Part shown: positions 12,123 through 33,782 of the stretch, one piece after another | Layout: every line of letters starts with the position of its first letter | Numbering within the stretch: position 1 is the stretch's first letter | Assembly: GCF_014195485.1 (NCBI RefSeq) | Contig: NZ_JACIBU010000002.1 | Span: 1-64,000 of the forward strand | Direction: 5' to 3' | Source of the DNA: Modestobacter versicolor | GTDB lineage: Bacteria; Actinomycetota; Actinomycetes; Mycobacteriales; Geodermatophilaceae | DNA length: 64,000 nt | The notes under the pieces: generated by a model | Databases searched by the model: none | What the model was told of the DNA's origin: nothing | What the model saw: only the letters and a program-made list of their open reading frames with translations | Translations under genes and position numbers: made by a program

Positions 12123-13040
12123 TCAGCCGCCGGACGCCGCCAGCTCCTCGACCCGCGCGGCGGAGCGGTCCCGGATCGCCGCGGCGGTCGCCGCCCGGCG
12201 GGCGGCGGCGTCCCGGCGCTTCTCGGCCTCGTGCACCGCGCCCACCGCCTCCTTCGCCTCGCGCTCCACCCGGCGCAGCTCCTTCTCCAGCTGCTCGGCC
12301 CGCTCGTGCAGCTGGTCCCGCCGCTCCCCCGCCTCGGTCAGCTCCTGCTCGGCCGCCTGCGCCGACGCCGCCGCGTCGCGAGCCACCGCGGCGGCCTCCT
12401 CGGCGTCCCGGCGGGCCTGCTCCAGCTCCTGCCGGCGGCGTTCCTCGGCCTCCTGGCGCCGCAGCTCGGCGGCGTCCGGGCCCTGCGGGGCCGGCGTCGC
12501 CGCCTTCGCCCGCGGTGCGGCCCCCGAGCGGACCGGCGTCGCCACCGCACCGCTGAGGTCGACCGGACCCAGCCCGCTGTAGGACAGCGCCGTGGTCAGC
12601 CGCCCGCCGGCCAGCGCCTCGCCCGCGTCCGGGTCGACCACCGCCGCGCGCAGCGTGCTCTCCACCTGCTCGGCCACCGCGCTGCTGACGTCGTGCCCCT
12701 CGGCGTGCGCGAGGCCGCGCGCCTGGCGGGCCAGCGCGGCGACCACCTGGTTGCGCTGCCGGCCGAGCTGGCGCAGCTCGTCACCGGACAGGCCGACCTG
12801 CGCCCGGCGGAGCATCTCGCCGATCTCCCGCAGCTGGGCCACCTCGTCGGGCTGCCGGCGGACCAGCAGGTTGCACACCCACGCCGCCGTGGTCGGCTTG
12901 GGCAGCGCGGCGACGGCCTTGGCCAGCTCCTTGTCCGTGGCCTTCGCCCGGTCGCGGGCGGCGGTGCGCGCCTCGACGAACTCCTCGGGCGGCACGCCGT
13001 AGAGCTCCTCGGCGATCTCGTCCAGCTCGTCGTCGTCCAC
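12123..13040 (-). CDS. coiled-coil protein of unknown function
   Basis: A 305-residue cytoplasmic protein I do not recognise beyond similar actinobacterial hypotheticals. Residues 1-150 are helical and moderately conserved-looking (LDEIAEELYGVPPEEFVEAR, LPKPTTAAWVCNLLVRRQPD). A short Ala/Pro linker follows. The last 130 residues are a long charged coiled coil rich in Glu, Arg and Ala. No signal peptide or membrane segment is seen. The GTG giving a VDDDELDEIAEE start was chosen; the open frame continues far upstream on this strand only because the opposite strand is coding and GC-rich. It is divergent from the peptidase-fusion operon. Confidence 0.75.
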   Translation of the reverse strand: MDDDELDEIAEELYGVPPEEFVEARTAARDRAKATDKELAKAVAALPKPTTAAWVCNLLVRRQPDEVAQLREIGEMLRRAQVGLSGDELRQLGRQRNQVVAALARQARGLAHAEGHDVSSAVAEQVESTLRAAVVDPDAGEALAGGRLTTALSYSGLGPVDLSGAVATPVRSGAAPRAKAATPAPQGPDAAELRRQEAEERRRQELEQARRDAEEAAAVARDAAASAQAAEQELTEAGERRDQLHERAEQLEKELRRVEREAKEAVGAVHEAEKRRDAAARRAATAAAIRDRSAARVEELAASGG

Positions 13041-13095
13041 CCGTGCATCGTGCCGGGCGGGCCGCCGCGGTGGCAGGGGCGGTGGCCGGCAGCCA

Positions 13096-13140
13096 CCCGT
13101 TGTGTGCGCGGCCAGTCGGCGGTGGGTCCGTTCGTCGCCG
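13096..13140. promoter_or_regulatory. promoter motifs shared with the second S12 hydrolase locus
   Basis: CCCGTTGT (13096-13103), CGCGGCCAG (13107-13115) and CCGTTCGTCGCCG (13128-13140) occur in this order upstream of the peptidase fusion gene. The same three blocks, in the same order and with similar spacing, lie upstream of the S12 hydrolase gene at 33783. The 9-mer CCGTTCGTC recurs before the PucR-type regulator gene. This looks like a common operator, perhaps for that regulator. Confidence 0.45.
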
Positions 13141-13181
13141 TGCACGATGACCGCCCCGGGGCGGCCCAGCAGGCTCGCGCC

Positions 13182-16100
13182 ATGGGACGACCGCTGGACC
13201 TCGAGGACATCAGTGCCCTGCAGCTGCCGAGCGACCCGGCGATCGCACCGGACGGACGGCGGGTGGTCTACGTCCTGCGCACCACCGACACCGGGGCCGA
13301 CGCCGACCGGACGGCGCTGTGGTCGGTCACCGCGACCGACGACGGCTGGGCCGAGCCGGTCCAGCTGACCCGGGGCACCGCGGACAGCTCGCCCGCCTTC
13401 TCCCCCACCGGAGACCGGGTCGCCTTCCTCCGCGGCGGCGACGGCCCACCGCAGCTGCACCTGCTCGCCGTCTCCGGCGGCGAGGCCGAGCGGGTGACCG
13501 ACCTGCCCGCCGGCGCCGGAGCCCCGGTGTGGAGCCCGGCCGGTGACCGGATCGCGTTCACCGCCGCCGTGCGCGACGCCGACGAGGACGAGCACGCGCC
13601 GATCAGCACCAGCCGGCTCGGCTACAAGGCCGACGGAGCGGGGCTGCTGCGCAGCACCCGGCAGCACGTGCACGTGCTCGACCTGGCCACCGGCGAGGTC
13701 CGGCAGCTGACCTCCGGCGACTGGCACGCCGGCCGGCCGGCCTGGTCTCCCGACGGCGAGCAGCTCGCCCTCGCAGCCGGGCCCGAGCCGGACGCGGACA
13801 CCACCTGGCGCACCCCGGCCCACCTGGTGCCCGCCGCCGGCGGACCGCTCCGCCGGGTCGCCGGTCAGCTGGACGTCGCCGGACCGATCACCTGGACCGC
13901 CGACGGCGCCGCGCTGCTGGTCGCCGGGCAGCAGCGGCTGGCGGTCGGCCACGCCGGGCTCTTCGTCCAGCCGGTCGAGGGCGGGGGCGACCCGGTCGAC
14001 CTCGCCGCCCCGCTGGACCGGAACGTGATGCCCGGCGGGCCGGGCTACCCCGGCGGGCTGCCGCAGCTCACCGCCGACGGCGGCACGGTCGTGTTCTGCG
14101 TCCGGGACCGCGGCTGCTCGCACGTCTACGCCACCGCGGTCGACGGCTCGTCGTCCCCCCGCCCGGTGCTCACCGGGGACGACCTGGTCGTCTCCGGGCT
14201 GTCCGTGGCCGCCGACGCCGACCGCGCCGCCGTGGTGCTCGCCGACCCGGGCACCTACGGCGAGGTCGCGGTGGTCGACCTGACCGACGGGACGACGACC
14301 CGGGTCACCCGGCACACCGCCGCCGGCCTCCCGGACGTCGACCTGCTCGTCCCCGAGCCGCGCACCTTCACCGTGCACGACGGCACCGAGGTGCACGGCT
14401 GGCTGCTGCGCGACCCGGCCGCCCCGGCGCCCGGCCCGCTGCTGGTCGACGTGCACGGCGGGCCGCACAACGCCTGGGCACCGGCGGCCGACGCCGCGCA
14501 CCCCTACCACCAGGCGCTGGCCGCCGCGGGCTGGTCGGTGCTGCTGGTCAACCCGCGCGGCAGCGACGGCTACGGGCTGGAGTTCTTCACCGGCGCGGCC
14601 GGGCGCTGGGGCACCGCCGACGAGCGGGACTTCCTCGACCCGGTCGACCAGCTGGTGGCCGAGGGGGTGGCCGACCCGGACCGGCTCGCGCTCACCGGCT
14701 ACAGCTACGGCGGCTACCTGACCTGCTGGCTCACCGGCCGCACCGACCGGTTCGCCGCGGCGATCGCCGGCGGGGTGGTCAGCGACCTGACCAGCATGCT
14801 CGGCACCAGCGACGCCGGGTACGCGCTGGGCGGGATGGAGTGGCCCGACCCCTGGACGGCGCCCGCCGAGCTGGCCGAGCTCTCCCCGATCAGCCGGGTG
14901 CACCAGGTGCGCACGCCGACGCTCGTGCTGCAGGGGCAGGCCGACGAGCGCTGCCCGGTGGGCCAGGCCGAGCAGTGGTTCGCCGCGCTGCGCACCCGCG
15001 GCGTGCCCACCGAGCTGGTGCTCTACCCCGGCGGCTCGCACCTGTTCATCCTCAGCGGCCGCCCCAGCCACCGGGTCGACTACAGCCGCCGGCTGGTCCG
15101 CTGGGCGCAGCAGCACGTGCCCACGCCGCGCCCGGCCATCGACGCGGCGCACTGGCAGCAGCGCCTCGACGTCCTCGCCGCCCGGCACTCCGTGCCCGGG
15201 GCTGCCCTCGCCGTCCGGCGGGTCGGTGCCGGGCCCGACGAGCTCGTCGAGCTGGCCACCGGCGTCCTCAACCGGTCGACCGGGGTCGCGACGACGACCG
15301 ACTCGGTCTTCCAGATCGGCTCGATCACCAAGGTCTGGACGACGACGCTGGTGATGCAGCTGGTCGACGAGGGCCGGCTGGACCTGGACGCGCCGCTGGC
15401 GGAGGTGCTGCCCGAGCTGCAGCTCGGCGACCCCGACGTCGCCAAGCGGGTGACGATGCGGCACCTGCTCACCCACACCAGCGGCATCGCCGGCGACGTC
15501 TTCACCGACACCGGCCGCGGCGACGACTGCGTCGAGCGCTACGTGGCAGCGCTGGCCGACACGCCGCAGAACCACCCGCTGGGCGCCACCTTCTCCTACT
15601 GCAACTCCGGCTTCACGCTCGCCGGCCGGGTGGTCGAGGTGCTCACCGGGCAGACCTGGGACGCCGCCCTGCGCGAGCGGGTCATCGAACCGCTGGGGCT
15701 CGCGCACACCTCGACGCTGCCCGAGGAGGCGGTCCTGCACCGCGCCGCCGTCGGCCACATCGCCCCCGAGCCCGGCGCCGACCCCGCGCCGGTGCCGGTC
15801 TGGGTGCTGCCCCGCTCGCTCGGCCCGGCCGGGCTGGTCAACGCCACCGCCGCCGACGTCACCGCCTTCGGCGCCCTGCACCTGCGCGGCGGCGTGACGG
15901 CGGACGGGACCCGGGTGCTCTCGGCGGCGTCGACCGAGGCGATGCAGAGCCGGCAGGCCGAGCTGCCGGACCGGTACTCGCTCGGCGACTCGTGGGGCCT
16001 GGGCTGGATCCGGCACGTCTGGGACGGCGAGCTGCTGGTCGGCCACGACGGCGGCACGTACGGGCAGGGCGCGTTCCTGCGGGTGCTGCCCGAGCACGGG

Positions 16101-16517
16101 CTGGTCATCGCGCTGCTCACCAACGGCGGGAAGATGAAGGACCTCTACACCGACGTGATGGGCGAGCTGGTCGGCGAGCTGGCCGGGCTGCAGCTGCCCG
16201 CGCCGCTGGAGCCCCCGGAGCAGGCACCGCAGGTCGAGCTCGCCCGGTACGCCGGCAGCTACGAGCGCAGCTCCGTGGCGACCGAGGTGTTCGAGCGGGA
16301 CGGCGGGCTGGTCATGCGGGAGACGATGTCCGGTGCGGTGGCCGAGGCGGTCGGCCAGCCGGTGCAGGAGCACCCCCTGGTGCCGGTCGCCGAGGGACTG
16401 TTCGCCGTGCGCGCACCGGGTACGGACGGCTGGTCGGCGGTGACGTTCCACTCGCTGCCCGACGGCACCGAGTACCTGCACACCGGAGGCCGCGCCAACC
16501 CCAGGAAGAGCCGATGA
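13182..16517 (+). CDS. fusion of S9 prolyl-oligopeptidase-like and S12 beta-lactamase-like hydrolase
   Basis: A single 1111-residue chain holding two serine hydrolases. Residues 1 to about 648 are an S9-type peptidase: WD40-like beta-propeller repeats, then the catalytic domain with GYSYGGY (Ser508) and a terminal His in GGSHLFI. Residues from about 650 are a complete S12 enzyme (class C beta-lactamase / D-aminopeptidase fold) with SITK (Ser714, Lys717), YCN (Tyr806) and HDG (His955). The join falls at RPAID, the fourth to fifth residue of the separate paralogue at 33783, with no linker. There is no signal peptide, so it should act on imported peptides in the cytoplasm. Its stop overlaps the M20 gene's start (ATGA). 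S12 substrate stereochemistry (D-residues) is inferred from context. Confidence 0.9.
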   Translation: MGRPLDLEDISALQLPSDPAIAPDGRRVVYVLRTTDTGADADRTALWSVTATDDGWAEPVQLTRGTADSSPAFSPTGDRVAFLRGGDGPPQLHLLAVSGGEAERVTDLPAGAGAPVWSPAGDRIAFTAAVRDADEDEHAPISTSRLGYKADGAGLLRSTRQHVHVLDLATGEVRQLTSGDWHAGRPAWSPDGEQLALAAGPEPDADTTWRTPAHLVPAAGGPLRRVAGQLDVAGPITWTADGAALLVAGQQRLAVGHAGLFVQPVEGGGDPVDLAAPLDRNVMPGGPGYPGGLPQLTADGGTVVFCVRDRGCSHVYATAVDGSSSPRPVLTGDDLVVSGLSVAADADRAAVVLADPGTYGEVAVVDLTDGTTTRVTRHTAAGLPDVDLLVPEPRTFTVHDGTEVHGWLLRDPAAPAPGPLLVDVHGGPHNAWAPAADAAHPYHQALAAAGWSVLLVNPRGSDGYGLEFFTGAAGRWGTADERDFLDPVDQLVAEGVADPDRLALTGYSYGGYLTCWLTGRTDRFAAAIAGGVVSDLTSMLGTSDAGYALGGMEWPDPWTAPAELAELSPISRVHQVRTPTLVLQGQADERCPVGQAEQWFAALRTRGVPTELVLYPGGSHLFILSGRPSHRVDYSRRLVRWAQQHVPTPRPAIDAAHWQQRLDVLAARHSVPGAALAVRRVGAGPDELVELATGVLNRSTGVATTTDSVFQIGSITKVWTTTLVMQLVDEGRLDLDAPLAEVLPELQLGDPDVAKRVTMRHLLTHTSGIAGDVFTDTGRGDDCVERYVAALADTPQNHPLGATFSYCNSGFTLAGRVVEVLTGQTWDAALRERVIEPLGLAHTSTLPEEAVLHRAAVGHIAPEPGADPAPVPVWVLPRSLGPAGLVNATAADVTAFGALHLRGGVTADGTRVLSAASTEAMQSRQAELPDRYSLGDSWGLGWIRHVWDGELLVGHDGGTYGQGAFLRVLPEHGLVIALLTNGGKMKDLYTDVMGELVGELAGLQLPAPLEPPEQAPQVELARYAGSYERSSVATEVFERDGGLVMRETMSGAVAEAVGQPVQEHPLVPVAEGLFAVRAPGTDGWSAVTFHSLPDGTEYLHTGGRANPRKSR

Positions 16518-17710
16518 CCGCAGTGACGCTCCCCATCGACGGCTTCGCCGACACCCTCCCGGCGATGCTGGCCGACCTGGCGGCGCTGGTGACCTGCGAG
16601 TCGCCGTCGGCCGACCTGGCCGCGGTCGCCGCCGGCGCCGAGCAGGTCGCCCGGCTGGGCACCCGGTCGCTGGGGACCGAGCCCGAGGTGCTGGTGCTGG
16701 CGGGCTGCACCCACCTGCGGTGGCGGCTGGGCACCGGCCCGCGCCGGCTGCTGCTGCTCTGCCACCAGGACACGGTCTGGCCGCTGGGCACCCTGGCGAC
16801 CATCCCCTGGTCGGTCACCGACGGCGTGGTGCGCGGCCCGGGGTGCTTCGACATGAAGGCCGGCATCGTGCTGGCGTTCACCGTGCTGTCCCGGCTGCAG
16901 GCGGCCGGCACCGACCTGGACGGCGTGACCGTGCTGGTCACCGGCGACGAGGAGATCGGCTCCCCCACCTCCGCCGACCTGATCCGCGCCGAGGCGACCG
17001 GCTGCCGCGCGGTGCTCGTGCTGGAGGCCAGCGCCGACGGCGGTGCGCTGAAGACCGGCCGCAAGGGCGCCTCGCTGTACGAGCTGGCGGTCACCGGCCG
17101 CGCCGCGCACGCCGGGCTGGAGCCGGAGAAGGGCGTGAGCAGCACCATCGAGCTGGCCCACCAGGTCCTCGCGGTCGCCGCGCTCGCCGACCCGGCCCAC
17201 GGGACGACGGTCACCCCCACGGTGCTGACCTCCGGGACGACGACCAACACCGTGCCGGCCGCCGGCACGCTGGGCGTCGACGTCCGGGCGCTGACCGCCG
17301 CCGAGCAGCAGCGGGTCGACGCCGGCATGCGGGCGCTCACCCCGGTGCTGCCCGGTGCCCGGCTCGAGCTGCGCGGTGGCATCAACCGCCCGCCGCTGGA
17401 GGAGGCGTCCTCGGCGGCCCTGTTCGCGCTGGCCGGGACGGTGTCGGCCGGGCTCGGGCTGCCCGCCCCGGTGGGCGTGACCGTCGGCGGCGCCTCGGAC
17501 GGCAACTTCACCGCCGGCATCGGGGTGCCCACCCTCGACGGCCTGGGCGCGGTCGGCGGTGGTGCGCACGCCGCCGGCGAGCACGTCCTCGCCGCCGAGC
17601 TGCCCGGCCGCGCCGCGCTGCTGGCCGGGCTGGTCACCGCGGTGCTGGCCGACGGGGACGGTGCGGGCGTCGGCGTCGGCGTCCCGGACGAAGAGCCCGA
17701 CGGTGAATGA
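16514..17710 (+). CDS. M20 family metallopeptidase / N-acyl amino acid deacylase
   Basis: A 398-residue zinc hydrolase of the carboxypeptidase G2 / ArgE-DapE group. The first metal ligands are in LCHQDTVWP (His84, with Asp86 next to it), the bridging Asp113 is in CFDMKAG, and the catalytic Glu146 and ligand Glu147 are in GDEEIGS. The dimerisation-domain segment GRAAHAGLEPEKG is also present. Family members remove an acyl group or a C-terminal residue. Because the next two genes encode a GNAT transferase and an NSAR-type racemase, the best specific role is hydrolysis of N-succinyl-L-amino acids to free L-amino acids, as in the Geobacillus pathway. That role is inference. Start and preceding stop overlap by 4 bp. 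Confidence 0.87.
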   Translation: MTAVTLPIDGFADTLPAMLADLAALVTCESPSADLAAVAAGAEQVARLGTRSLGTEPEVLVLAGCTHLRWRLGTGPRRLLLLCHQDTVWPLGTLATIPWSVTDGVVRGPGCFDMKAGIVLAFTVLSRLQAAGTDLDGVTVLVTGDEEIGSPTSADLIRAEATGCRAVLVLEASADGGALKTGRKGASLYELAVTGRAAHAGLEPEKGVSSTIELAHQVLAVAALADPAHGTTVTPTVLTSGTTTNTVPAAGTLGVDVRALTAAEQQRVDAGMRALTPVLPGARLELRGGINRPPLEEASSAALFALAGTVSAGLGLPAPVGVTVGGASDGNFTAGIGVPTLDGLGAVGGGAHAAGEHVLAAELPGRAALLAGLVTAVLADGDGAGVGVGVPDEEPDGE

Positions 17711-17750
17711 GGGTGGCGCACCAAGCCCGGCGGGGTCTCCCCGCCCGACG

Positions 17751-18698
17751 ATGGTCCGCGTGACCGACCTCATCGCCGAGACGGCGGCCGTCGCTGCCCG
17801 GCCCCCGTCGACCGCGGCAGCCGCGGCCTGGCTCGCGGCCACCGCGGCCGCCGCCGAGTCGGGGGTGCGCATCGTCGAGCTGGGCGACCTGCACGACCTG
17901 CGCGACGTCCAGGCGCTCTTCGACTCGATCTGGAACCCGGCGCCGGACAACCGGCCGGTCACCATCGAGCTGATGCGGGCGCTGACCAAGGCCGGCAACC
18001 CGCTGACCGGCGCCTACGAGGGCACCCGGCTGGTCGGGGCCTGCGTGGGGTTCTTCGGTGCGCCCGGCGGCACCTCGCTGCACAGCCACGTCACCGGGGT
18101 GGCGCGGACCGCGCAGCGGCGCAGCATCGGCCGGGCGCTCAAGCTGCACCAGCGCGCCTGGGCGCTGGACCGCGGGATCACCCGGATCACCTGGACCTTC
18201 GACCCGCTGGTGCGCCGCAACGCGTGGTTCAACCTGAGCCGGCTGGGCGCCACACCGCTGGAGTACCTGCCCGACTTCTACGGCCGGATGGACGACACCA
18301 TCAACGCCGACGACCAGTCCGACCGGCTGCTCACCGCCTGGGCGCTGGACAGCGACCCGGTGGTGCGGGCCGTCGCCGGCGAGCCGGTGCAGGTCGACCT
18401 GGCCGGCCTGCTGGCCGCCGGTGCGGTCGCCGTCGTCGCCCCCGGGCCCGACGGCGCCCCGGTGGTCTCGCCCGGCGCCACCGGCCACCCCTGGCTGGTG
18501 GCGGTGCCGCCGGACGTGGAGACGCTCCGCGCGCGGGCACCGCAGCTGGCAGCGCAGTGGCGGCTGGCGGTGCGCGAGGCGCTCGGCGGTGCGCTGGACG
18601 CCGGCGCCCGGGTGCACGGGTTCGCCCGCGAGGGCTGGTACGTCGTCGACGGCGTGGCCCCGGCCGGCGCCCCGGAGCCTGGGAGGGCCACCCCGTGA
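17751..18698 (+). CDS. COG3375-type GNAT acyltransferase, probable D-amino acid N-succinyltransferase
   Basis: A 315-residue protein with a GNAT fold in residues about 40-200, including the acyl-CoA-binding-like stretch AQRRSIGRALKLHQRAWAL, and the very characteristic WTFDPLVRRNAWFNLSRLGA and EYLPDFYGRMDDTINADD segments of COG3375 proteins. In Geobacillus kaustophilus a GNAT protein beside an NSAR-type racemase was shown to succinylate D-amino acids using succinyl-CoA. The gene order here (M20, GNAT, NSAR) supports the same reaction. A GTG 48 bp upstream, overlapping the M20 gene, and a GTG 9 bp downstream are alternative starts. Its stop overlaps the next start by 4 bp (GTGA). Confidence 0.85.
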   Translation: MVRVTDLIAETAAVAARPPSTAAAAAWLAATAAAAESGVRIVELGDLHDLRDVQALFDSIWNPAPDNRPVTIELMRALTKAGNPLTGAYEGTRLVGACVGFFGAPGGTSLHSHVTGVARTAQRRSIGRALKLHQRAWALDRGITRITWTFDPLVRRNAWFNLSRLGATPLEYLPDFYGRMDDTINADDQSDRLLTAWALDSDPVVRAVAGEPVQVDLAGLLAAGAVAVVAPGPDGAPVVSPGATGHPWLVAVPPDVETLRARAPQLAAQWRLAVREALGGALDAGARVHGFAREGWYVVDGVAPAGAPEPGRATP

Positions 18699-19801
18699 AG
18701 CTCGAGTCCGTCGAACTGCGGCGCATCGCGATGCCGCTGGTGGCGCCGTTCCGCACCTCCTTCGGCACCCAGACCGCCCGCGACATCCTGCTGGTGCGGG
18801 TGCGCACCGACGTCGGCGAGGGCTGGGGCGAGTGCGCGGCGCTGGCCGACCCGCGCTACTCCGCCGAGTACGTCGACGGTGCGGCCGACGTGCTGCGCCG
18901 CTTCCTGGTGCCCGCCGTCGCCACCGCCGACGACCTCGACGCGTACGCCGTCGGCCGGGTGCTCGAGCCCTTCAGCGGCCACTGGATGGCCAAGGCCGCG
19001 CTGGAGACCGCCGTCCTGGACGCCGAGCTGCGCGCCGCCGGCCGCTCCTTCGGCTCGTTCCTGGGCGCGGCGACCGACCGGGTGCCCTGCGGGGTCTCGG
19101 TCGGGATCATGGACTCCGTCGACGCCCTGCTCGACGCCGTCGGCGGGTACGTCGACGCCGGCTACCTGCGGATCAAGCTGAAGATCGAGCCAGGCTGGGA
19201 CCTCGAGCCGGTGCGCGCCGTGCGCGAGCGGTTCGGCGACATCGCCCTGCAGGTCGACGCCAACACCGCCTACACGGTCTCCGACGCCCGGCACCTGGCG
19301 AAGCTGGACCCCTTCGAGCTGCTGCTCATCGAGCAGCCGCTGCCCGAGGACGACGTGCTCGGCCACGCGCAGCTGGCCCGGTCGGTGCGCACCCCGATCT
19401 GCCTGGACGAGTCGATCACCTCGGCGCGGACCGCCGCGGCCGCGATCACCCTGAGCGCCTGCTCGATCGTCAACGTCAAGCCGGCCCGGGTCGGTGGCTA
19501 CCTGGAGGCCCGCCGGATCCACGACATGTGCGCGGCGCACGGCGTCCCGGTCTGGTGCGGCGGGATGCTGGAGACCGGGCTGGGGCGGGCGGCGAACGTC
19601 GCGCTGGCCGCGCTGCCGAACTTCACGCTGCCCGGCGACACCTCCGCCTCCGACCGCTACTACGCCACCGACATCACCCCGCCGTTCGTGCTCGAGGACG
19701 GGCACCTGCGGGTGCCGACCGGCCCCGGCCTGGGTGTGGAGCCCGACCCGGTGCTGCTCGACGAGGTGACCACCACGGTCGAGGAGCTCTCCCTGCGCTG
19801 A
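18695..19801 (+). CDS. NSAR/OSBS-type enolase-superfamily enzyme, probable N-succinylamino acid racemase
   Basis: A 368-residue member of the muconate-lactonising subgroup. The catalytic KxK pair is Lys161/Lys163, the magnesium ligands are Asp188, Glu213 and Asp238, and the second base is Lys262 in NVKPARVGG. These positions match the Amycolatopsis N-acylamino acid racemase almost exactly. An Arg three residues after the second Lys, reported to favour racemase activity in this subfamily, is present (Arg265). The enzyme could also make o-succinylbenzoate for menaquinone, but no other men gene is nearby, while an N-succinyltransferase and a deacylase are directly upstream. The GTG start has GGGAGG upstream and overlaps the preceding stop. 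Confidence 0.9.
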   Translation: MKLESVELRRIAMPLVAPFRTSFGTQTARDILLVRVRTDVGEGWGECAALADPRYSAEYVDGAADVLRRFLVPAVATADDLDAYAVGRVLEPFSGHWMAKAALETAVLDAELRAAGRSFGSFLGAATDRVPCGVSVGIMDSVDALLDAVGGYVDAGYLRIKLKIEPGWDLEPVRAVRERFGDIALQVDANTAYTVSDARHLAKLDPFELLLIEQPLPEDDVLGHAQLARSVRTPICLDESITSARTAAAAITLSACSIVNVKPARVGGYLEARRIHDMCAAHGVPVWCGGMLETGLGRAANVALAALPNFTLPGDTSASDRYYATDITPPFVLEDGHLRVPTGPGLGVEPDPVLLDEVTTTVEELSLR

Positions 19802-19804
19802 CCG

Positions 19805-19884
19805 CCGTTCGTCCGTCGGCACCAGAGGGCAGCGGTCCAGTGGTGCGACCGGACCACCTGAAGGCCGGGCGGCGGCCCTAGGGT
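19805..19884 (+). promoter_or_regulatory. promoter region of the PucR-type regulator gene
   Basis: This 90-bp gap holds the 9-mer CCGTTCGTC (19805-19813), also found upstream of both S12 hydrolase loci, and an imperfect inverted repeat CAGTGGT-N8-ACCACCTG (19838-19860). TAGGGT at 19879-19884 lies 7 nt before the GTG, the spacing of a leaderless actinobacterial -10 element. Autoregulation is inferred. Confidence 0.45.
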
Positions 19885-19891
19885 CGGCGTC

Positions 19892-21589
19892 GTGAGCCTG
19901 TCTGCGATCACCGCCCCGGGCCTGTCCGCGCTGACCCAGCCGCGGGCGGTGCCCCCGCGCGCCAGCCTCGGCCACCTGCTCGACCACCTCGGGACGACGC
20001 TGCTCGAGGTCGCCGCCGGCGAGCCGACGCTGCCGCTGGCCGAGCAGGGCGTCGGTGGCGTGGTCATCCACGACCCGGTCGACGCCCCGGTGCTGCCCTC
20101 CCGCGCGCTGGTGCTCGGCGTCGGCGTGCACGAGCCCGACGACGTCCTGGCCCTGCTGGAGCAGACCGCCGCCGCCGGCGGGGCCGGGCTGGTCGTGCGG
20201 GCCCCGGCCCCGGCCGACCCGCGGATCACCGCCGTCGCCGAGCGCACCGGCACCGTGCTGCTGGCGCTCACCCGCGGCGCCAGCTGGAACCAGCTGGCCA
20301 CCCTGGTCCGCTCGCTGCTGGGCGAGGGCCAGGTCGGGACGGCGGAGCCGGAGTCGCTGGGCGGGGTGCCGGCCGGCGACCTGTTCGCGCTGGCCAACGC
20401 GATCGGCTCGCTGCTGGACGCGCCGGTGACCATCGAGGACCGCAGCTCCCGGATCCTGGCCTTCTCCGGCCGGCAGGACGAGGCCGACGAGTCCCGGATC
20501 CAGACGATCCTCGGCCGCCAGGTGCCCGACCGGTTCACCCGCGGGCTGGAGGCGCACGGGGTGTTCCGGCAGCTGTACGGCAGCGACCGGCCGGTGTGGA
20601 TGCCGCCGGACGTGCTGTCGATGCCGGAGGTGACGGTCTCCCGGGTGGCGATCGCGGTGCGCGCCGGCGACGAGATCCTCGGGACGATCTGGGCGGCCGT
20701 CGACGCCCCGCTGGACGCCGCCCGCGAGCAGAGCCTGGTCGACTCCGCGAAGCTCGTCGCCCTGCACCTGCTGCGGATGCGGGCCGGCGCGGACGTCGAG
20801 CGCCGGCTGGCCAGCGAGCTGGTCGCCACCGCGCTGGAGGGCGGGCCGGGCACGGTCGACGCGCTGAGCCGGCTGGGGCTGGCCGGCCGCCCGCTGGTCG
20901 TGCTGGCCATGGGGCTCACCGAGGCCGACGCCGAGCCGGGCACGCTGAGCCTGGCCCGGCGGGAGGCCGAGCGGCAGCGCTCCGCCGACGCCCTCGCCGT
21001 CCACCTGTCCGCGCTGCACCCGGGCTCCGTCGTCGCCGTGGTGGGCGGGGTCTGCTACGCCGTCCTGCCGGTGACCGTCGACCCGATCGGCGCCGCCGAC
21101 GAGCGGGCCGCGGCGGTGGCGGCGGAGTTCCTGCAGCGCACCGGGGGCCGGGTGCCCGGCATGATCGGCGTCGGCGTGGTCGCCCCCGACGTCTCCGCGC
21201 TCACCCGTTCCCGGGACAGCGCCGACCGCGCGCTGCGGGTGCTGCGCTCGGGCACCTCCTCGCGGCGGGTCGCCCGGGCCTCCGACGTGCACATCGAGTC
21301 GCTGATGCTGCAGCTGGCCGACCTGGCCGCCGCCGAGGGCCACCAGACGTCCGGCCCGGTGGCCCGGCTGGCCGCCTACGACGCCGCGCACCGCACCCAG
21401 CTGGTCGAGACCCTGCGCGCCTGGCTGGACTCCTTCGGCGACGCCATCGCGGCCAGCGGCCGGGTGCACGTGCACCCCAACACCTTCCGCTACCGGCTGC
21501 GCCGGATCGGCGAGGTGGGCGGCATCGACCTGGACGACGCCGACTCCCGGTTCGCCGCGATGCTGGAGCTGCGCCTGCTCCGCTGGTGA
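19892..21589 (+). CDS. PucR family transcriptional regulator
   Basis: A 565-residue regulator. The N-terminal part (to about residue 130) resembles the PucR purine-catabolism ligand domain, a GAF-like middle part follows (around 165-290, VTIEDRSSRILAFSGRQDEA), and the C-terminal PucR helix-turn-helix has the family signature HVHPNTFRYRLRRIGEVGGI. PucR-type activators usually control nearby catabolic genes in response to a substrate. It lies 90 bp after the racemase gene on the same strand with its own leaderless-type promoter, so it is the natural regulator of the D/L amino-acid operon. That assignment is inferred from position and shared promoter motifs. Confidence 0.88.
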   Translation: MSLSAITAPGLSALTQPRAVPPRASLGHLLDHLGTTLLEVAAGEPTLPLAEQGVGGVVIHDPVDAPVLPSRALVLGVGVHEPDDVLALLEQTAAAGGAGLVVRAPAPADPRITAVAERTGTVLLALTRGASWNQLATLVRSLLGEGQVGTAEPESLGGVPAGDLFALANAIGSLLDAPVTIEDRSSRILAFSGRQDEADESRIQTILGRQVPDRFTRGLEAHGVFRQLYGSDRPVWMPPDVLSMPEVTVSRVAIAVRAGDEILGTIWAAVDAPLDAAREQSLVDSAKLVALHLLRMRAGADVERRLASELVATALEGGPGTVDALSRLGLAGRPLVVLAMGLTEADAEPGTLSLARREAERQRSADALAVHLSALHPGSVVAVVGGVCYAVLPVTVDPIGAADERAAAVAAEFLQRTGGRVPGMIGVGVVAPDVSALTRSRDSADRALRVLRSGTSSRRVARASDVHIESLMLQLADLAAAEGHQTSGPVARLAAYDAAHRTQLVETLRAWLDSFGDAIAASGRVHVHPNTFRYRLRRIGEVGGIDLDDADSRFAAMLELRLLRW

Positions 21590-21631
21590 GCCGCCGCCGG
21601 GCTGTCGGTGGTGCTGGCTACGGTGCCCCGC

Positions 21632-22960
21632 GTGCACCGCGGCATGGTCGTCCTGGTCCTCTGCGCGGTGCAGTTCGTCGACGTGCTGGGCGTGACCAGC
21701 ACGACGACCGCCATCCCGGCGGTGCTCGACGGCCTGGACGCCCCCGGTTCTGCGGCCGGGCCGCTGGCGGTCGCCTACCCGATGTTCTTCGGCGGGCTGC
21801 TGGTCCTCGGCGCCCGGCTGGGTGACCGGTACGGCTCCCGGCGGGTGCTGGCCGGCGGGGTCGTCGTCTTCACCGTCGCGGCAGCCGCGGGTGGCGTCGC
21901 GCAGGACGTCGGCCAGCTGCTCGTCGTCCGGGCGGTGCAGGGCGGCGCGGCCGCCGTCTGCGTGCCCTGCGCGCTGCGGCTGCTGCTGGTCGCCGCCGGC
22001 TCCGGCCGCGACCGGGCCGGCGCGCTGGCGCTGTGGAGCGCCTCGGGAGCGGTGGCCGGCGCCGCCGGGTTCCTGGTCGGCGGCCTGCTCACCGACGTCT
22101 GGGGCTGGCGCTCGGTCTTCTGGGTCAACGTGCCGATCGGGGTGCTGCTGCTCGCCGCGCTGCTCCGGGCGGTCCCGGCACCGCCGCCGGAGGCGCCCGG
22201 CGCGCACCTGGACCTGCCGGGTGCCGGACTGCTGATCGGTGCGGTGATGGCCGTCGTCGCCGGCGCCTCGCTGGTCGAGTCACCGGCGTCCCGGCCGGCG
22301 GGGGTGGCGCTCGCCGTCGCCGGCGCGGGCATCGGGCTGCTCTTCGTCCGCCAGCAGCGGCGCAGCCGCGGGCCGCTCCTGCCCGCCGGGGCGGTGCGCT
22401 CGCCGCAGCTGCGCGCCGGCACTGTCGTCTCCTTCGTCAACACCGCGACGACGAGCTCGGCGGCGGTGCTGGCGACGCTCGTGCTGCAGGACCGGCTGGG
22501 CGCCTCACCGCTGCAGGCCGGGCTCGCGCTGCTGCCGATCAGCGTCGCCGCGGTGGTCGGCTCGGCGGCGACCCGGCCGCTGACCGCCCGCCTGCCGATG
22601 CGGGTCGTCGGAGGTGCCGGGCTGCTGGGCATCTGCGCCGGCAACGTGCTGCTGGCCGCCACCTTCGGCACCGCCTGGGGCGTGGTGGCCGGGGGCGCGG
22701 TGATCGGGCTCGGGCTCGGGGCGGCCTCGGTGGCCGGCAACTCGATCGGCACCGAGGTGGCCCCGGAGCTGGAGGGCAGCGCGTCCGGCGTGCTCAACAC
22801 CGGCGCCCAGCTGGGCACCGCGCTGGGCGTGGCCGCGCTGGTGCTGGTGGCGGCCGGCGACCTCGGCCCGCTGCCGGGCACCGCGCTGGCCTGGGCGGTG
22901 GCGGCGCTGGCGGCGGCGGGCTGCGCGGCGTGGCTGGTGCGGTCACCCGCCCTGCGCTGA
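21632..22960 (+). CDS. MFS transporter, DHA2-like drug or metabolite exporter
   Basis: A 442-residue membrane protein with about fourteen hydrophobic segments, as in the DHA2 family of drug:proton antiporters. GARLGDRYGSRRVL is the conserved loop-2 motif, and GGLLTDVWGWRSVFWVNVPIG is the motif C/D2 region typical of EmrB/QacA relatives. The substrate is unknown. The GTG start was chosen because TACGGT lies 7 nt upstream (leaderless pattern); an in-frame GTG 24 bp earlier has no ribosome-binding site. It ends by overlapping the convergent YafY-type gene by 18 bp. Confidence 0.85.
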   Translation: MHRGMVVLVLCAVQFVDVLGVTSTTTAIPAVLDGLDAPGSAAGPLAVAYPMFFGGLLVLGARLGDRYGSRRVLAGGVVVFTVAAAAGGVAQDVGQLLVVRAVQGGAAAVCVPCALRLLLVAAGSGRDRAGALALWSASGAVAGAAGFLVGGLLTDVWGWRSVFWVNVPIGVLLLAALLRAVPAPPPEAPGAHLDLPGAGLLIGAVMAVVAGASLVESPASRPAGVALAVAGAGIGLLFVRQQRRSRGPLLPAGAVRSPQLRAGTVVSFVNTATTSSAAVLATLVLQDRLGASPLQAGLALLPISVAAVVGSAATRPLTARLPMRVVGGAGLLGICAGNVLLAATFGTAWGVVAGGAVIGLGLGAASVAGNSIGTEVAPELEGSASGVLNTGAQLGTALGVAALVLVAAGDLGPLPGTALAWAVAALAAAGCAAWLVRSPALR

Positions 22961-23938
22961 CCCGCCCTGCACCGACCCGCCCTCGGCCGACCGCTGGAAC
23001 CTGGCCGCCCACTCGGCCAGCCGCTCGCGCAGCTCGGCCGGGGCGACCACGGTGAACTCCGCGCGCACCGCGCCCAGGACCAGCGCTGCCCAGTCGAGCA
23101 CGTCGGTCTCCAGGTGCACCCGGCAGCGGTCCGCGCCGTCGTCCTCGACCCGCACCCACTGGCCGACCCGGTCCCGGACGACGGCCCCCGGGGCCTCGAC
23201 CACGGCCTCCACGACGTGGGCGGAGCGGAACTGGTCGATGCCGGCCCGGACGAACGCCGCCGCGTCGTCGGCCGGCAGCGGGCGAGGCGCGAACCGGGCG
23301 CCGGTACCGCGCACCGCCGTCATCCGGTCCAGCCGGAAGCTGCGCCAGCCGCCGCGCTCCGGGTCGTAGGCGACCAGGTACCACCGCCGGCCGAGCGGGA
23401 CGAGGCGGTGCGGCTCGACCAGCCGCTCGGCGGGCTCGCCCCCGGCCGGGCTGTACCGGAAGCCGAGCCGGCCGGTGTCCCGGCAGGCCTGCGCGACCTC
23501 CACCAGCACCTGCGGGTCGACCGCCGGGCCGCCGTCGGACCAGGCCGGGGCGGGCACGGTCATCGCCCGCAGCGCGTCGACCCGGCGGCGCAGCCGGGCG
23601 GGCAGCACCGGCACGACCTTGGCCAGCGCGCGCACCGACGGCTCGGCCATCCCGGCCACCGCGCTGGACGCCGCAGTCTGCAGCCCGACGGTGAGCGCGA
23701 CCGCCTCGTCGTCGTCCAGCACCAGGGGCGGCAGCGACGCCCCGGCGGCCAGCCGGTAGCCGCCGTCGACGCCGGGCTGGGCCTCCACCGGGTAGCCCAG
23801 CTCCCGCAACCGGTCGACGTCCCGCCGGAGCGTGCGCACCGAGACGCCGAGCCGGTCGGCGAGGTCGGCGCCCGCCCAGTCGCGGCGGCCCTGCAGCAGG
23901 GTCAGCAGCCGCAGCGCCCGGTGCGTGGGGTCGGTCAT
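22943..23938 (-). CDS. YafY/WYL-domain transcriptional regulator
   Basis: A 331-residue regulator with an N-terminal winged helix of the DeoR/HTH_11 type (ADLADRLGVSVRTLRRDVDR, then LGYPVEAQPGVDGGYRL) and a WYL domain near residues 150-220 (VPLGRRWYLVAYDPERGGWR), followed by the WCX C-terminal extension. WYL domains sense nucleic acids or small ligands in several systems. Here the divergent DinB-like gene 95 bp away is the likely target, a common arrangement in actinobacteria. It ends in a short Gly/Ser/Gln repeat that overlaps the end of the convergent transporter gene. Confidence 0.9.
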   Translation of the reverse strand: MTDPTHRALRLLTLLQGRRDWAGADLADRLGVSVRTLRRDVDRLRELGYPVEAQPGVDGGYRLAAGASLPPLVLDDDEAVALTVGLQTAASSAVAGMAEPSVRALAKVVPVLPARLRRRVDALRAMTVPAPAWSDGGPAVDPQVLVEVAQACRDTGRLGFRYSPAGGEPAERLVEPHRLVPLGRRWYLVAYDPERGGWRSFRLDRMTAVRGTGARFAPRPLPADDAAAFVRAGIDQFRSAHVVEAVVEAPGAVVRDRVGQWVRVEDDGADRCRVHLETDVLDWAALVLGAVRAEFTVVAPAELRERLAEWAARFQRSAEGGSVQGGSAQGG

Positions 23939-26472: not shown

Positions 26473-27453
26473 TCAGTCGGCGACGCGCAGCAGGGTCCGT
26501 CCGGCCGGGGCGAAGTGGCAGGCCGCCGCGTGCCGGTGGTCCGCCGTCGGCTCGGTGGTGCGGCAGACCTCGCGGTCGGCGTGCACCAGCGGGCCGATCG
26601 GGCAACGCGGATGGTAGCGGCAGCCCGGCGGCGGGGCGTGCGGGTCGGCCGGGTCGGCGGCGGCCACCGCAGCCTGCGCCGGGTCGGCGGCCACCGGGGC
26701 GGACCGGACGGCGTGCGCCGAGTCGGGCACCGCCGCCAGCAGGTCGCGGGTGTAGGGGTGCTGCGGGTCGGCGAGCACCTGCGCCGTCGGCCCGTGCTCG
26801 ACGACCCGGCCCAGGTACATGACCGCGATCTCGCTGGCCACGTACCGGACGACGGCGAGGTTGTGCGAGATGAACAGCATCGAGGTGCCCAGCTCCTGCT
26901 GCAGCCGGCGCACCAGGTTGAGCACCGTGCCCTGGATCGACACGTCGAGCGCGGAGGTGATCTCGTCGGCGATGACGACCGCCGGGCGCGCGGCCAACGC
27001 CCGGGCCAGCGCGACCCGCTGCCGCTGGCCCCCGGACAGCTGGCCCGGGTAGGCACCGGCCCGGCCGGGATCGAGCTCGACCAGCTCGAGCAGCCGCGCG
27101 ACCTCGCTGCGGCGCTCGGCCGACCGGGTGCCGCGCGGGACGGCCTCGGCGATGCTGTCGCCGATGGTCATCCGCGGGTCGAGGGACGAGTAGGGGTCCT
27201 GGAAGACCATCTGCACCGGCCGGGGGCCCGAGCCGTGCCGCACCGGCCGGCCGTCGAGCAGGATCTGGCCGGCCGACAGCGGGGTCAGCCCCACCGCGGC
27301 CCGGGCCAGCGTCGACTTGCCCGACCCGGACTCCCCCACCAGCCCGACGACGGCGCCGTCCGGCACGGTGAGGTCCACCCCGTCGACCGCGGTCATCCCG
27401 CGCCGGCGGGTGCCGTACCGGACGCTCACGCCCTCGAACCGCAGCTCGCTCAT
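26473..27453 (-). CDS. peptide ABC transporter ATP-binding protein, DppF/OppF type
   Basis: A 326-residue ATPase that powers peptide import. It has Walker A GESGSGKST, the family marker VFQDPYSSLDPRM, the signature LSGGQRQRVALARAL, Walker B VVIADEITSALD and the switch His in ISHNLAV. The C-terminal oligopeptide-transporter extension has clustered Cys (GCRYHPRCPIGPL, VCRTTE, ACHF), typical of Opp/Dpp ATPases and proposed to bind an iron-sulfur cluster. The start ATG overlaps the stop of the upstream permease-ATPase gene (ATGA), so the two nucleotide-binding subunits are made together. It is the last gene of the importer operon. Confidence 0.93.
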   Translation of the reverse strand: MSELRFEGVSVRYGTRRRGMTAVDGVDLTVPDGAVVGLVGESGSGKSTLARAAVGLTPLSAGQILLDGRPVRHGSGPRPVQMVFQDPYSSLDPRMTIGDSIAEAVPRGTRSAERRSEVARLLELVELDPGRAGAYPGQLSGGQRQRVALARALAARPAVVIADEITSALDVSIQGTVLNLVRRLQQELGTSMLFISHNLAVVRYVASEIAVMYLGRVVEHGPTAQVLADPQHPYTRDLLAAVPDSAHAVRSAPVAADPAQAAVAAADPADPHAPPPGCRYHPRCPIGPLVHADREVCRTTEPTADHRHAAACHFAPAGRTLLRVAD

Positions 27454-29468
27454 GCCCGCTCCCCGATCGTCAGGACCCCAGCGCCCCGCCCGGTCTCCCC
27501 CGGCGCCAGCTCGCCGGCGTGCCAGCAGGCCACCCGCCGGCCGGAGCCGTCGTCGGCCAGCGCCGGGTCCTCCTCGGTGCAGCGCGCCGACGCCAGCGGG
27601 CAGCGCGCGGCGTAGGCGCAGCCCGGGGGCTGGTGCGCGGGGTCGACCGGCCGGCCGGGGATCACCGGCAGCGGCTGGTCGAGGTCGACGTGCATGTCCG
27701 GGACGGCGGCGACCAGCGCCCGGGTGTACGGGTGGCGGGCGTGCGTGCTCAGCTCGGCGGCGGGCAGGTCCTCCACCACCCGGCCGGCGTACATCACCAG
27801 CACCCGGTCGCACACCTGGCCGACGACGGCGACGTCGTGGCTGATCAGCAGCAGCGCGACGTCGTCGGCGGCCCGGACCGACGCCAGCAGGTCGAGCACC
27901 TGCCGCTGCACGGTGACGTCCAGGGCGGTGGTCGGCTCGTCGGCGACGATCAGCGCCGGCTCGCCCATCAGGCCCATCCCGATCATCGCCCGCTGCCGCA
28001 TGCCGCCGGAGAACTCGTGCGGGTACTGGTGCGCGCGGCGCTCGGCGCCGGGCACCCGCACCGCGCGCAGCCGGTCGACGGCGCGGGCCAGCGCCTGCCG
28101 GCGGTTCATCCCCTGGTGCTGCTCGGCGACCTCGGCGAGCTGCCGGCCGATCCGGCGGGTCGGGTTGAACGAGGTCATCGGGTCCTGGAAGACCATCGCG
28201 AAGGCGGTGCCCAGCAGCCGCCGGTGCGTGCGGTCGCTGCCACCCAGCACGTCGGTGCCGAGGAACTCCAGCCGCTCGGCGCTCACTTCGCCCGGCCGCT
28301 CCACCAGCCGGGCGATCGCCAGCGCGGTCAGCGACTTGCCCGACCCCGACTCGCCCACGACGCCGACCGCCTCGCCCCGGCCGATCCGGAAGCTCACCCC
28401 GCGCACCGGCCGGACCGGGCCGGTGGGACCGGGGAAGGTGACCGAGAGGTCCTGCACGTCGAGCACCGGCCGGTCCGCCGCCGGGCCCGGGTCGGTGGCC
28501 GGCACACCGTCGTCGGTCACCGCCGCGGGCACCGTCTCGGCACGGTCGGTGCGGCCCACCGGGTACGCCCCGCCCATGGCGGTGGTCAGCCCGATGCCCT
28601 TGGCGACCGCCTCACCGAAGAGGTTGAACGCCAGCCCGGCCACGACGATCGCCACGCCGGGCGCCAGCGCTGCCTCCGGGTGGATGTAGATGCCGCTCAG
28701 CCCGTCCTGCAGCAGCCGGCCCCAGTCGTAGCTGGGCGCCTGCACGCCGAGGCCGAGGAAGGACAGGCCGGCGAAGGCCAGCAGCGCACCGCCGGCGCCG
28801 ATGGTCGCGTTCACCACCAGCGGCTCGCCGATGTTGGGCAGCACGTGGCGCACCAGCAGCCGCAGCCGGCCGACCCCGGCGATCCGGGCGGCGGCCACGT
28901 AGTCGCGGTCGGTGATGCCGGCGGCCAGCGTGTGGGTGAGCCGGGCGAAGGCGGGTGCGCCGGCGAAGCCGATGGCCAGCACCGCCCCGGTCATCCCGAC
29001 GCCGAACACGACGGCGAAGAACAGCGCGAGCAGCAGGCCGGGGAACGCGACGGCGATGTCGACCGCCGCGCTGACCAGCCGGCCGGCCCGGCGGCCCAGC
29101 AGCAGCGGCGCGGTGCCCAGCACCAGGCCGACGACGACGGCGATCAGCGTGGCCAGCAGCGCCAGCCCGATCGACAGCCGGGTGGCCACCAGCACGCGGA
29201 AGAAGAGGTCGCGACCCAGGTTGTCGGTGCCGACCCAGTGGTCGGCGGACGCCCCCTCGAGCACCGACGTGATGTCGACGGTGTCGGCGTCGTCGGACCA
29301 CAGCAGCGGCGCGAGCACGGCCAGCACCAGCACCAGCGCGAGCAGCAGGCCGGCGCCGGCGCCCACCGGGGTGCGCAGCACGGCGAGCCAGCGGCCGCGG
29401 ACCGCCGACCGCCGTGACGGCGGGGCCGCGGCGACCAGCGGTGAGGAGCCCATCGGGGACGTCGTCAT
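27450..29468 (-). CDS. peptide ABC transporter permease-ATPase fusion, DppC-DppD type
   Basis: A 672-residue fusion. Residues 1 to about 300 are a DppC-like permease with six hydrophobic helices, the VGTDNLGRDLFFRVL motif before the permease domain and the EAA loop DYVAAARIAGVGRLRLLVRH. After a 40-residue linker, residues about 340-672 are a DppD-like ATPase with GESGSGKSLT, VFQDPMTSFNP, FSGGMRQRAMIGMGL, LIVADEPTTALD and ISHDVAV, and the Cys-rich C-terminal extension (GCAYAARCPLASARC). Such fusions are known in actinobacteria. It joins DppF by a 4-bp overlap and follows DppB by 3 bp. Confidence 0.92.
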   Translation of the reverse strand: MTTSPMGSSPLVAAAPPSRRSAVRGRWLAVLRTPVGAGAGLLLALVLVLAVLAPLLWSDDADTVDITSVLEGASADHWVGTDNLGRDLFFRVLVATRLSIGLALLATLIAVVVGLVLGTAPLLLGRRAGRLVSAAVDIAVAFPGLLLALFFAVVFGVGMTGAVLAIGFAGAPAFARLTHTLAAGITDRDYVAAARIAGVGRLRLLVRHVLPNIGEPLVVNATIGAGGALLAFAGLSFLGLGVQAPSYDWGRLLQDGLSGIYIHPEAALAPGVAIVVAGLAFNLFGEAVAKGIGLTTAMGGAYPVGRTDRAETVPAAVTDDGVPATDPGPAADRPVLDVQDLSVTFPGPTGPVRPVRGVSFRIGRGEAVGVVGESGSGKSLTALAIARLVERPGEVSAERLEFLGTDVLGGSDRTHRRLLGTAFAMVFQDPMTSFNPTRRIGRQLAEVAEQHQGMNRRQALARAVDRLRAVRVPGAERRAHQYPHEFSGGMRQRAMIGMGLMGEPALIVADEPTTALDVTVQRQVLDLLASVRAADDVALLLISHDVAVVGQVCDRVLVMYAGRVVEDLPAAELSTHARHPYTRALVAAVPDMHVDLDQPLPVIPGRPVDPAHQPPGCAYAARCPLASARCTEEDPALADDGSGRRVACWHAGELAPGETGRGAGVLTIGERA

Positions 29469-29471
29469 CGG

Positions 29472-30482: not shown

Positions 30483-30528
30483 CGTCGCCGTCCCCTCGCC
30501 GTCGTCCGGACCGTCCGCGGGTGCAGGG

Positions 30529-32115: not shown

Positions 32116-32233
32116 GGTGTGTCCTCTCCCTGGTACGCGAATGCGAGAAGGCTGCCCGCGGACGGGCCCGGGATCTTCGTGCAGCACGACGAGGCGGCCT
32201 GGCCGGCCTCGTCGGCGCTGACGAGCACGGTGG

Positions 32234-33622: not shown

Positions 33623-33648
33623 GCGGGCACCGTAGGAGCGCAGGCCAG

Positions 33649-33697
33649 CCCGTTGTTCGTGGTCGCGGCCAGCCCTGCCGGGGCCCGTTCGTCGCCG
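33649..33697. promoter_or_regulatory. divergent promoter with motifs shared with the fusion-peptidase promoter
   Basis: CCCGTTGT (33649-33656), CGCGGCCAG (33664-33672) and CCGTTCGTCGCCG (33685-33697) lie between two divergent S12 hydrolase genes. The same blocks occur upstream of the S9-S12 fusion gene. They could be operators of one regulator, or traces of promoter duplication along with the gene. Confidence 0.45.
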
Positions 33698-33782
33698 CCG
33701 ACGAAGATGCGGCCCACCCGCAGCGGCAGGCTGCGCCCGTGGGTCGGACCGGCCCCGGGTGCCCGACCGGACGGAGCAGCAG

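Follow-up and report, generated by a model that had tools for sequence, protein, structure and literature searches.

In Geobacillus kaustophilus, D-amino acids are reportedly converted to L-amino acids by a pathway, ascribed to Sakai et al. in 2006, in which a GNAT acyltransferase, an N-succinylamino acid racemase (NSAR) and an M20 hydrolase are encoded by adjacent genes. The ykfB region of Bacillus subtilis and the ycjG region of Escherichia coli are associated with a dpp transporter. In both regions, peptidases lie beside an L-Ala-D/L-Glu epimerase, according to PMC5808125. Here we analyzed the first 64,000 nucleotides of contig NZ_JACIBU010000002.1 of Modestobacter versicolor (hereafter the window), which form the start of contig C2 in a two-contig, 4.59-Mb assembly. 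Five plus-strand genes at 13182-21589 encode, in this order, an S9::S12 dual serine peptidase fusion, an M20-family metallohydrolase, a GNAT-fold acyltransferase, an NSAR of the enolase superfamily and a PucR/CdaR-type regulator, just as a first-pass annotation of the window had stated. We think it fairly probable that these genes are central to the utilization of peptides containing D-residues, in a system that would combine import, intracellular hydrolysis and, along the lines of the Geobacillus pathway, inversion of the D-amino acids.

Set beside the G. kaustophilus pathway, the locus has the same three enzyme classes in adjacent genes, but it also has the S9::S12 peptidase and PucR, often with a peptide ABC transporter, and its acyl group and stereochemistry are predicted ones. 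As in the ykfB and ycjG regions, peptidases adjoin an epimerase or racemase of the enolase superfamily, an arrangement that would make the D-residues of peptides usable. There, however, a dipeptide is epimerized, whereas here a free D-amino acid would be N-acylated, racemized and deacylated, and the peptidases are of the S9 and S12 families. The three-enzyme line and the peptidase-epimerase neighborhood are known; the attached S9::S12 peptidase, the frequent peptide ABC transporter and PucR set the present gene set apart from the Geobacillus pathway. A search of the open-access literature, with subscription literature outside its scope, found no description of an NSAR gene set with a peptidase, and to that extent the first-pass statement that such a link is undescribed stands. 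The available portions of reviews on amino-acid cascades (PMC7431475), racemases (PMC8142540), N-acyl amino acids (PMC8762209) and enzyme evolution (PMC4215206) likewise make no mention of an operon with peptidases.

Gene content and active sites

The fusion gene (13182-16517) is followed on the same strand by the genes for M20 (16514-17710), GNAT (17751-18698, with a start codon of our choice), NSAR (18695-19801) and PucR (19892-21589; GGDEF_2 and HTH_30 domains). Overlaps of 4 nt connect the fusion with M20, whose ATG lies on the fusion stop codon, and GNAT with NSAR, whose start lies on the GNAT stop codon, and gaps of 40 nt and 90 nt separate M20 from GNAT and NSAR from PucR.

The fusion is a single open reading frame (ORF) of 1111 aa that matches both Peptidase_S9 (162.8 bits) and Beta-lactamase/S12 (221.2 bits). 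Its S9 part covers approximately residues 9-645, with the triad S508, D588 and H620, and its S12 part approximately residues 655-1110, with the motifs S714-x-x-K717, Y806-x-N808 and H955-x-G957. S9 and S12 matches fall within one ORF at 40 of 160 further loci (3 family, 14 class and 22 named loci, as defined below, and L129), and all residues of the triad and the three motifs named above are invariant in 39/39 aligned fusions, which comprise these 40 loci minus two cut by locus ends, plus the window. In a structural model, 670 columns of the S9 half align with 8wt1, the S9 carboxypeptidase from Geobacillus stearothermophilus, at a target TM of 0.89 and 32% identity; with the invariant Ser-Asp-His triad, this agrees with the β-propeller and hydrolase domains of the S9 prolyl oligopeptidase family. 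It matches nearly the whole solved chain of 8wt1 and of the Deinococcus S9 enzyme 5yzm, both of which, unlike the fusion, are without an S12 part.

The S12 half shares its family with D-stereospecific enzymes, namely alkaline D-peptidase (4y7p), R61 DD-peptidase (1cef) and D-amino acid amidase (2dns), and the SxxK and YxN motifs appear in its alignment with 4y7p; in contrast to these distant relatives (E 9e-26 or weaker), it is apparently cytoplasmic and fused to S9. All three enzymes are among its further solved matches, together with ClbP and carboxylesterases. The third motif is KTG in class C lactamases. A β-lactamase reading of the S12 half was not favored, since the class C models listed lie far below their cut-offs and its own third motif is H-x-G. 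By eye, neither the fusion nor the stand-alone S12 proteins of the window (described below) carry a signal sequence, and the solute-binding protein has a lipobox; the fusion and the S12 enzymes are thus apparently cytoplasmic, so that the peptidases would act after uptake. The fusion would join a peptidase of the L type to one of the D type; we are aware of no parallel, although no search was aimed at such cases.

Among solved structures, the top match of the window NSAR is the Amycolatopsis NSAR (582.3 bits, phmmer), and 263 of 361 aligned residues (72.9%) are identical to the Amycolatopsis N-acylamino acid racemase, or NSAR/o-succinylbenzoate synthase (OSBS), represented by 1sja, 4a6g and 7s8w (identity computed with 1sja). 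The catalytic residues are kept, whereas four of 24 compared positions differ (M50L, L54R, G265A and I293L in Amycolatopsis numbering). K161, K163, D188, E213, D238, K262 and R265, which the first-pass annotation had named, are indeed present and are invariant in 16 aligned sequences, namely the window NSAR and 15 relatives, the most distant of them at 42% identity. R265, which is reported to favor racemization, aligns with R266 of the Amycolatopsis enzyme. The window NSAR lies below the dipeptide-epimerase models NF041118 (74.4 bits, cut-off 500) and NF011708 (59.9 bits, cut-off 343). It does exceed the menC model TIGR01928 (298.3 bits, cut-off 200.65). However, the genome holds a separate, dedicated MenC (G000:C1:3832604-3833524; 434.3 bits, cut-off 288), and among the 27 class genomes with a full-length fusion 25 have a MenC above its curated cut-off, namely this one and 24 of the 26 others. 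A menaquinone role for the window NSAR is therefore unlikely, judged from gene content, as is a product restricted to o-succinylbenzoate, and OSBS was rejected as the main role of the gene. G458 and G320, the two fusion genomes without MenC above the cut-off, may use another menaquinone route.

The GNAT protein barely passes the Pfam model Acetyltransf_1 (22.9 bits, cut-off 20.7), and a sequence search for solved relatives gave none that was convincing, with one at E 0.068. Its AlphaFold2 model (31-sequence alignment, pLDDT 91) matches GNAT structures with a target TM of 0.60-0.86 among the matches listed. This supports the GNAT fold; the proposed activity is that of a succinyl-CoA:D-amino acid N-succinyltransferase. 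The M20 protein is closest among solved structures to carboxypeptidase G2, which takes L-glutamate off an acyl partner, and it has the metal-site motifs HQDTVWP (84), GPGCFDMK (108), TGDEEIGS (143), VLEAS (169) and GGGAHA (348); across 86 aligned sequences, conservation of the motif residues is 98% or higher. These features are compatible with an L-specific N-acylamino acid hydrolase, for which N-succinylamino acids are the proposed substrates, although they leave desuccinylation unproven.

Linkage across genomes and plasmids

We followed the gene set at 160 loci beyond the window, which were examined by ORF and comprise 16 family loci, 60 class loci, 80 named loci and 4 other stretches, with L130-L132 counted among them; these three, like L128, contributed nothing to the argument. 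Seven places were fetched twice, so that the 160 loci represent 153 or fewer distinct places, and none of these seven pairs has a fusion. Nearly all were selected as NSAR loci and neither large sample is random: the named loci, all of them actinobacterial, were the top-scoring hits of an NSAR alignment and are biased towards close relatives, and the class loci are 60 of 137 places listed, mostly top-ranking. The 16th family locus, L036 (NSAR 42% identity), was left out of the co-occurrence count and, in a separate look, is without M20, GNAT and transporter. As controls, we used 20 arbitrary 17-kb stretches from 12 genomes. A class-wide survey covered 394 class genomes, 115 of which have an NSAR match at E 1e-80; the fusion survey scored the two best candidates per genome, which makes its number of full-length fusions a lower bound.

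M20 and GNAT matches occur together at 57/80 named, 28/60 class and 15/16 family loci and at 0/20 controls, so the M20-GNAT-NSAR grouping is above chance, and the three pathway genes and their order, as claimed in the first-pass annotation, are borne out. The class genomes hold at least 27 full-length fusions (window included), and for 26 of these the same strand carries an NSAR gene 1.9-7.5 kb downstream. At the 27th (G170), transporter, fusion, M20 and a partial GNAT are followed by the contig end. M20 lies directly 3′ of the fusion at 36/40 loci, with a median of 28.5 nt between the matched parts; three of the exceptions are loci of one genus with a wider gap, and the fourth is L151. PucR relatives are present at 54/80 named and 25/60 class loci. 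All four transporter parts, DppB, DppC, DppD and DppF (match threshold E 1e-20, with more than 100 residues aligned), are found at 43/80 named, 14/60 class and 12/16 family loci, and S9 or S12, transporter, M20 and GNAT are found together at 30/80, 11/60 and 11/16, respectively; both counts are 0/20 in the controls. In Klenkia-type relatives, the genes form one run of S12-SBP-Dpp-M20-GNAT-NSAR-PucR, where SBP is the solute-binding protein. The link to a peptidase, which the first-pass annotation had drawn from a single locus, is hence stronger than it claimed, recurring in many actinobacterial genera and usually with a peptide transporter. As a side observation, L151, L093, L195 and L198 have S12, GNAT and NSAR but no M20 match, and another hydrolase or a distant M20 may take its place.

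In the window, the transporter genes lie on the minus strand and encode a DppF-like ABC ATPase (26473-27453, start codon not fixed, in an ORF extending to 27813; ABC_tran and oligo_HPY), a DppC-DppD permease/ATPase in a single ORF (27450-29468; BPD_transp_1, ABC_tran and oligo_HPY), a DppB-like permease (29472-30482) and a peptide-type solute-binding lipoprotein (30529-32115; SBP_bac_5, with an LLAGC lipobox by eye). They belong to a cluster at 26473-36685 that also contains two genes for stand-alone S12 serine hydrolases and a D-aminoacylase-like gene. One S12 gene (32234-33622, minus strand) belongs to a branch that adjoins the SBP gene in several relatives, and the other (33801-35188, plus strand) encodes a protein with 71% identity to the fused S12 domain. 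The first-pass annotation had called the five genes a complete operon; the five genes are confirmed, but its range misses this transporter and hydrolase cluster, so that they are part of a larger system, and its interpretation as a whole is partly supported. The D-aminoacylase-like gene (35189-36685, plus strand), directly 3′ of the second S12 gene, encodes a protein with an Amidohydro_3 domain (PRK09061, 624 bits, cut-off 340) whose relatives include N-acyl-D-glutamate deacylase and D-aminoacylase. Full-length relatives (at least 49% identity) are present at 15 distinct NSAR loci among 156 searched and at 0/20 controls, and in five Amycolatopsis the gene lies directly 5′ of M20. This linkage suggests that N-acyl-D-amino acids are another input of the system.

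In ten plasmid records, matches extend over 80% or more of the fusion, with up to 57.6% identity, and two were inspected. Streptomyces plasmid H5 has a run of ten annotated genes, S12-SBP-DppB-DppCD-DppF-fusion-M20-GNAT-'menC'-HTH, the parts of which were confirmed by tblastn. Streptomyces plasmid H1 has, on one strand, amidohydrolase-M20-GNAT-NSAR-HTH-S12-serine hydrolase-SBP-Dpp-fusion, with an IS3 transposase after the fusion; we considered H1 as a fusion without NSAR and rejected this, as the two genes share a strand, with NSAR 10.5 kb 5′ of the fusion. Amycolatopsis loci L170, L172 and L197 have an order like that of H1. On the annotated Streptomyces plasmids, the racemase is named menC and the fusion 'serine hydrolase', names by which automated annotation hides the system. 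Most related NSAR genes on annotated plasmids, L234 and L241 among them, are publicly named menC even inside an M20-GNAT run, which is likely a systematic misannotation.

A plasmid search with NSAR gave 64 records, and we read the neighbors of seven non-actinobacterial loci of our choice in gene tables (PLSDB) that are incomplete, so that absences on plasmids carry little weight. A Deinococcus ficus plasmid (L240:7995-17092) has NSAR-GNAT-two permeases-SBP_bac_5-S12-Amidohydro_3-membrane dipeptidase, and Lysinibacillus fusiformis has POT peptide transporter-M20-GNAT-NSAR. The other loci read amino acid ABC transporter-NSAR-GNAT (Sulfitobacter), NSAR-substrate-binding proteins-GNAT (D. radiodurans), M20-NSAR (Cytobacillus) and amidohydrolase-GNAT-NSAR (Priestia), and the plasmid gene table shows no related neighbor of the Nitratireductor NSAR. 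The peptide link thus reaches beyond actinobacteria, yet it is not general.

Proposed function and alternatives

In the proposed system, the peptide-type ABC transporter (26473-32115) would import oligopeptides, which cytoplasmic serine peptidases would hydrolyze. The S9::S12 fusion would be the main one, its S9 half acting on ordinary, perhaps C-terminal, bonds and its S12 half on bonds at D-residues, and the stand-alone S12 enzymes would also contribute. GNAT would then N-acylate the free D-amino acids, probably from succinyl-CoA, and NSAR would racemize the N-acyl-D-amino acid. By deacylating the L form only, M20 would pull the reaction to L-amino acids, and PucR would control the operon. 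If this is true, soil bacteria would have a route to feed on peptides with D-residues, such as peptidoglycan fragments and peptide antibiotics, and the fusion would be a two-headed peptidase open to study. Actinobacterial NSAR/OSBS enzymes are used as biocatalysts, and whether they natively act as OSBS or as racemase is disputed; their place in a conserved operon alongside peptidases and an importer of peptides would offer a concrete, testable role for NSAR. Going further, and with clearly less confidence, we suggest a dedicated actinobacterial D-peptide system in which three parts act together: an importer, an S9::S12 peptidase that degrades peptides of mixed L and D residues (from peptidoglycan or of nonribosomal origin) to single amino acids within the cytoplasm, and a line of N-acylation, racemization and deacylation. 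Peptide catabolism would then be the native role of the Amycolatopsis-type NSAR, and a looser form would exist in Deinococcus and Bacillota.

Several observations weigh against the utilization of D-residue peptides. The racemase core often stands alone, with S9 or S12 absent at 38/60 class and 29/80 named NSAR loci, and a peptide transporter is present at two of the seven non-actinobacterial plasmid loci, an amino-acid-type transporter or binding protein at another two and neither kind at the remaining three. In the window itself, a distance of 4.9 kb separates PucR from the transporter genes, which form a cluster of their own on the minus strand. At L151, fusion, GNAT and NSAR are present and an M20 match is absent. 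A scan of 12900-23100 for sigma-70-type promoter and simple terminator patterns found none, which carries little weight at such a G+C content. Carboxypeptidase G2 is the closest solved relative of M20, which falls below the NCBIfam cut-offs of all matches listed, with no desuccinylase model among them reached. The fold matches listed for the fusion model are all S9 enzymes and model confidence is low in parts of the S12 half (775-805 and 874-883), so the S12 fold assignment rests on sequence. 'IS11', an alpha/beta hydrolase and a peptide cyclase come closest to the S12 half among solved structures, and all three have H-x-G at the third motif; as hydrolases and a cyclase share the motif and carboxylesterases are among the matches, it is no proof of D-peptidase action. 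Finally, substrates, stereochemistry, acyl group and donor, cellular role and regulation are predictions.

The best surviving alternative is that the core converts free D-amino (or N-acyl-amino) acids to L-amino acids and that the peptidases and transporter are general and merely co-regulated, with no specificity for D-residues. Such a core is seen at the many loci where NSAR, GNAT and M20 occur without peptidases or transporter, and the NSAR genes of Sulfitobacter and D. radiodurans adjoin amino-acid-type transporter parts. The S9 half is nearest to general S9 carboxypeptidases, and the D-aminoacylase-like gene, with its relatives at NSAR loci, also agrees with this view. We nevertheless consider it rather unlikely: among the 394 class genomes, the full-length fusion occurs only with NSAR operons (26/27, the 27th being cut by a contig end), and the S12 half keeps SxxK, YxN and HxG in every aligned fusion, which goes beyond what loose co-regulation predicts.

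The locus might instead serve in defense against, or processing of, D-residue peptide antibiotics, with amino-acid inversion being secondary. D-stereospecific peptidases are reported to hydrolyze such antibiotics (PMC9541196), and the S12 matches include ClbP and a PBP-type peptide cyclase. However, the peptidases, having no signal sequence by eye, would act after uptake, and the full conversion line and the importer point to nutrition, which makes a role of this kind improbable. That the enolase-family enzyme is an OSBS for menaquinone, as automated annotation, the TIGR01928 score and the menC name of most annotated plasmid relatives would have it, and as was held, according to a review (PMC4215206), for the biological role of the Amycolatopsis enzyme, is very improbable in view of the dedicated MenC genes, the usual M20, GNAT and peptidase neighbors and the invariant R265.

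History of the fusion and flanking features

In a tree of S12 domains (82 rows), the 40 fused rows fall in one group of 45 with support of 94/84, just below the tool's mark, and the remaining five rows of the group are stand-alone S12 proteins. The stand-alone S12 protein encoded at 33801-35188 groups with Modestobacter fusions (support 100/100) and, judged from this placement, looks like a duplicated, split-off S12 domain. In L026, from the genus of the window, an S9 gene is accompanied by only the last 64 residues of S12 (L026:12217-12402), indicating a fused ancestor that has since lost its S12 core. In the Streptomyces loci L201 and L208, S9 and S12 are neighboring ORFs in different frames and the S12 branches outside the fused group, which is perhaps the pre-fusion state; L196, which lies near L208, retains no more of S9 than its last 55 residues. 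The simplest reading is one fusion followed by several losses, with the root of the tree being unsure.

A gene for a DHA2-type MFS transporter (21608-22960, plus strand) begins 18 nt 3′ of PucR. We rejected it as a conserved part of the system, as relatives are present at only 2/80 named and 0/60 class NSAR loci, and it probably lies outside the system. A second genomic copy of the fusion (G000:C1:745-3735) was also considered as a paralogue and rejected. C1:1-16000 (L127) and the reversed window segment 1266-17258 are 99.96% identical, showing that the contig ends overlap and that there is no second operon. Within its S9 part, the alignment of the C1 copy shifts between several frames, pointing to small indels, and the window copy is open throughout.

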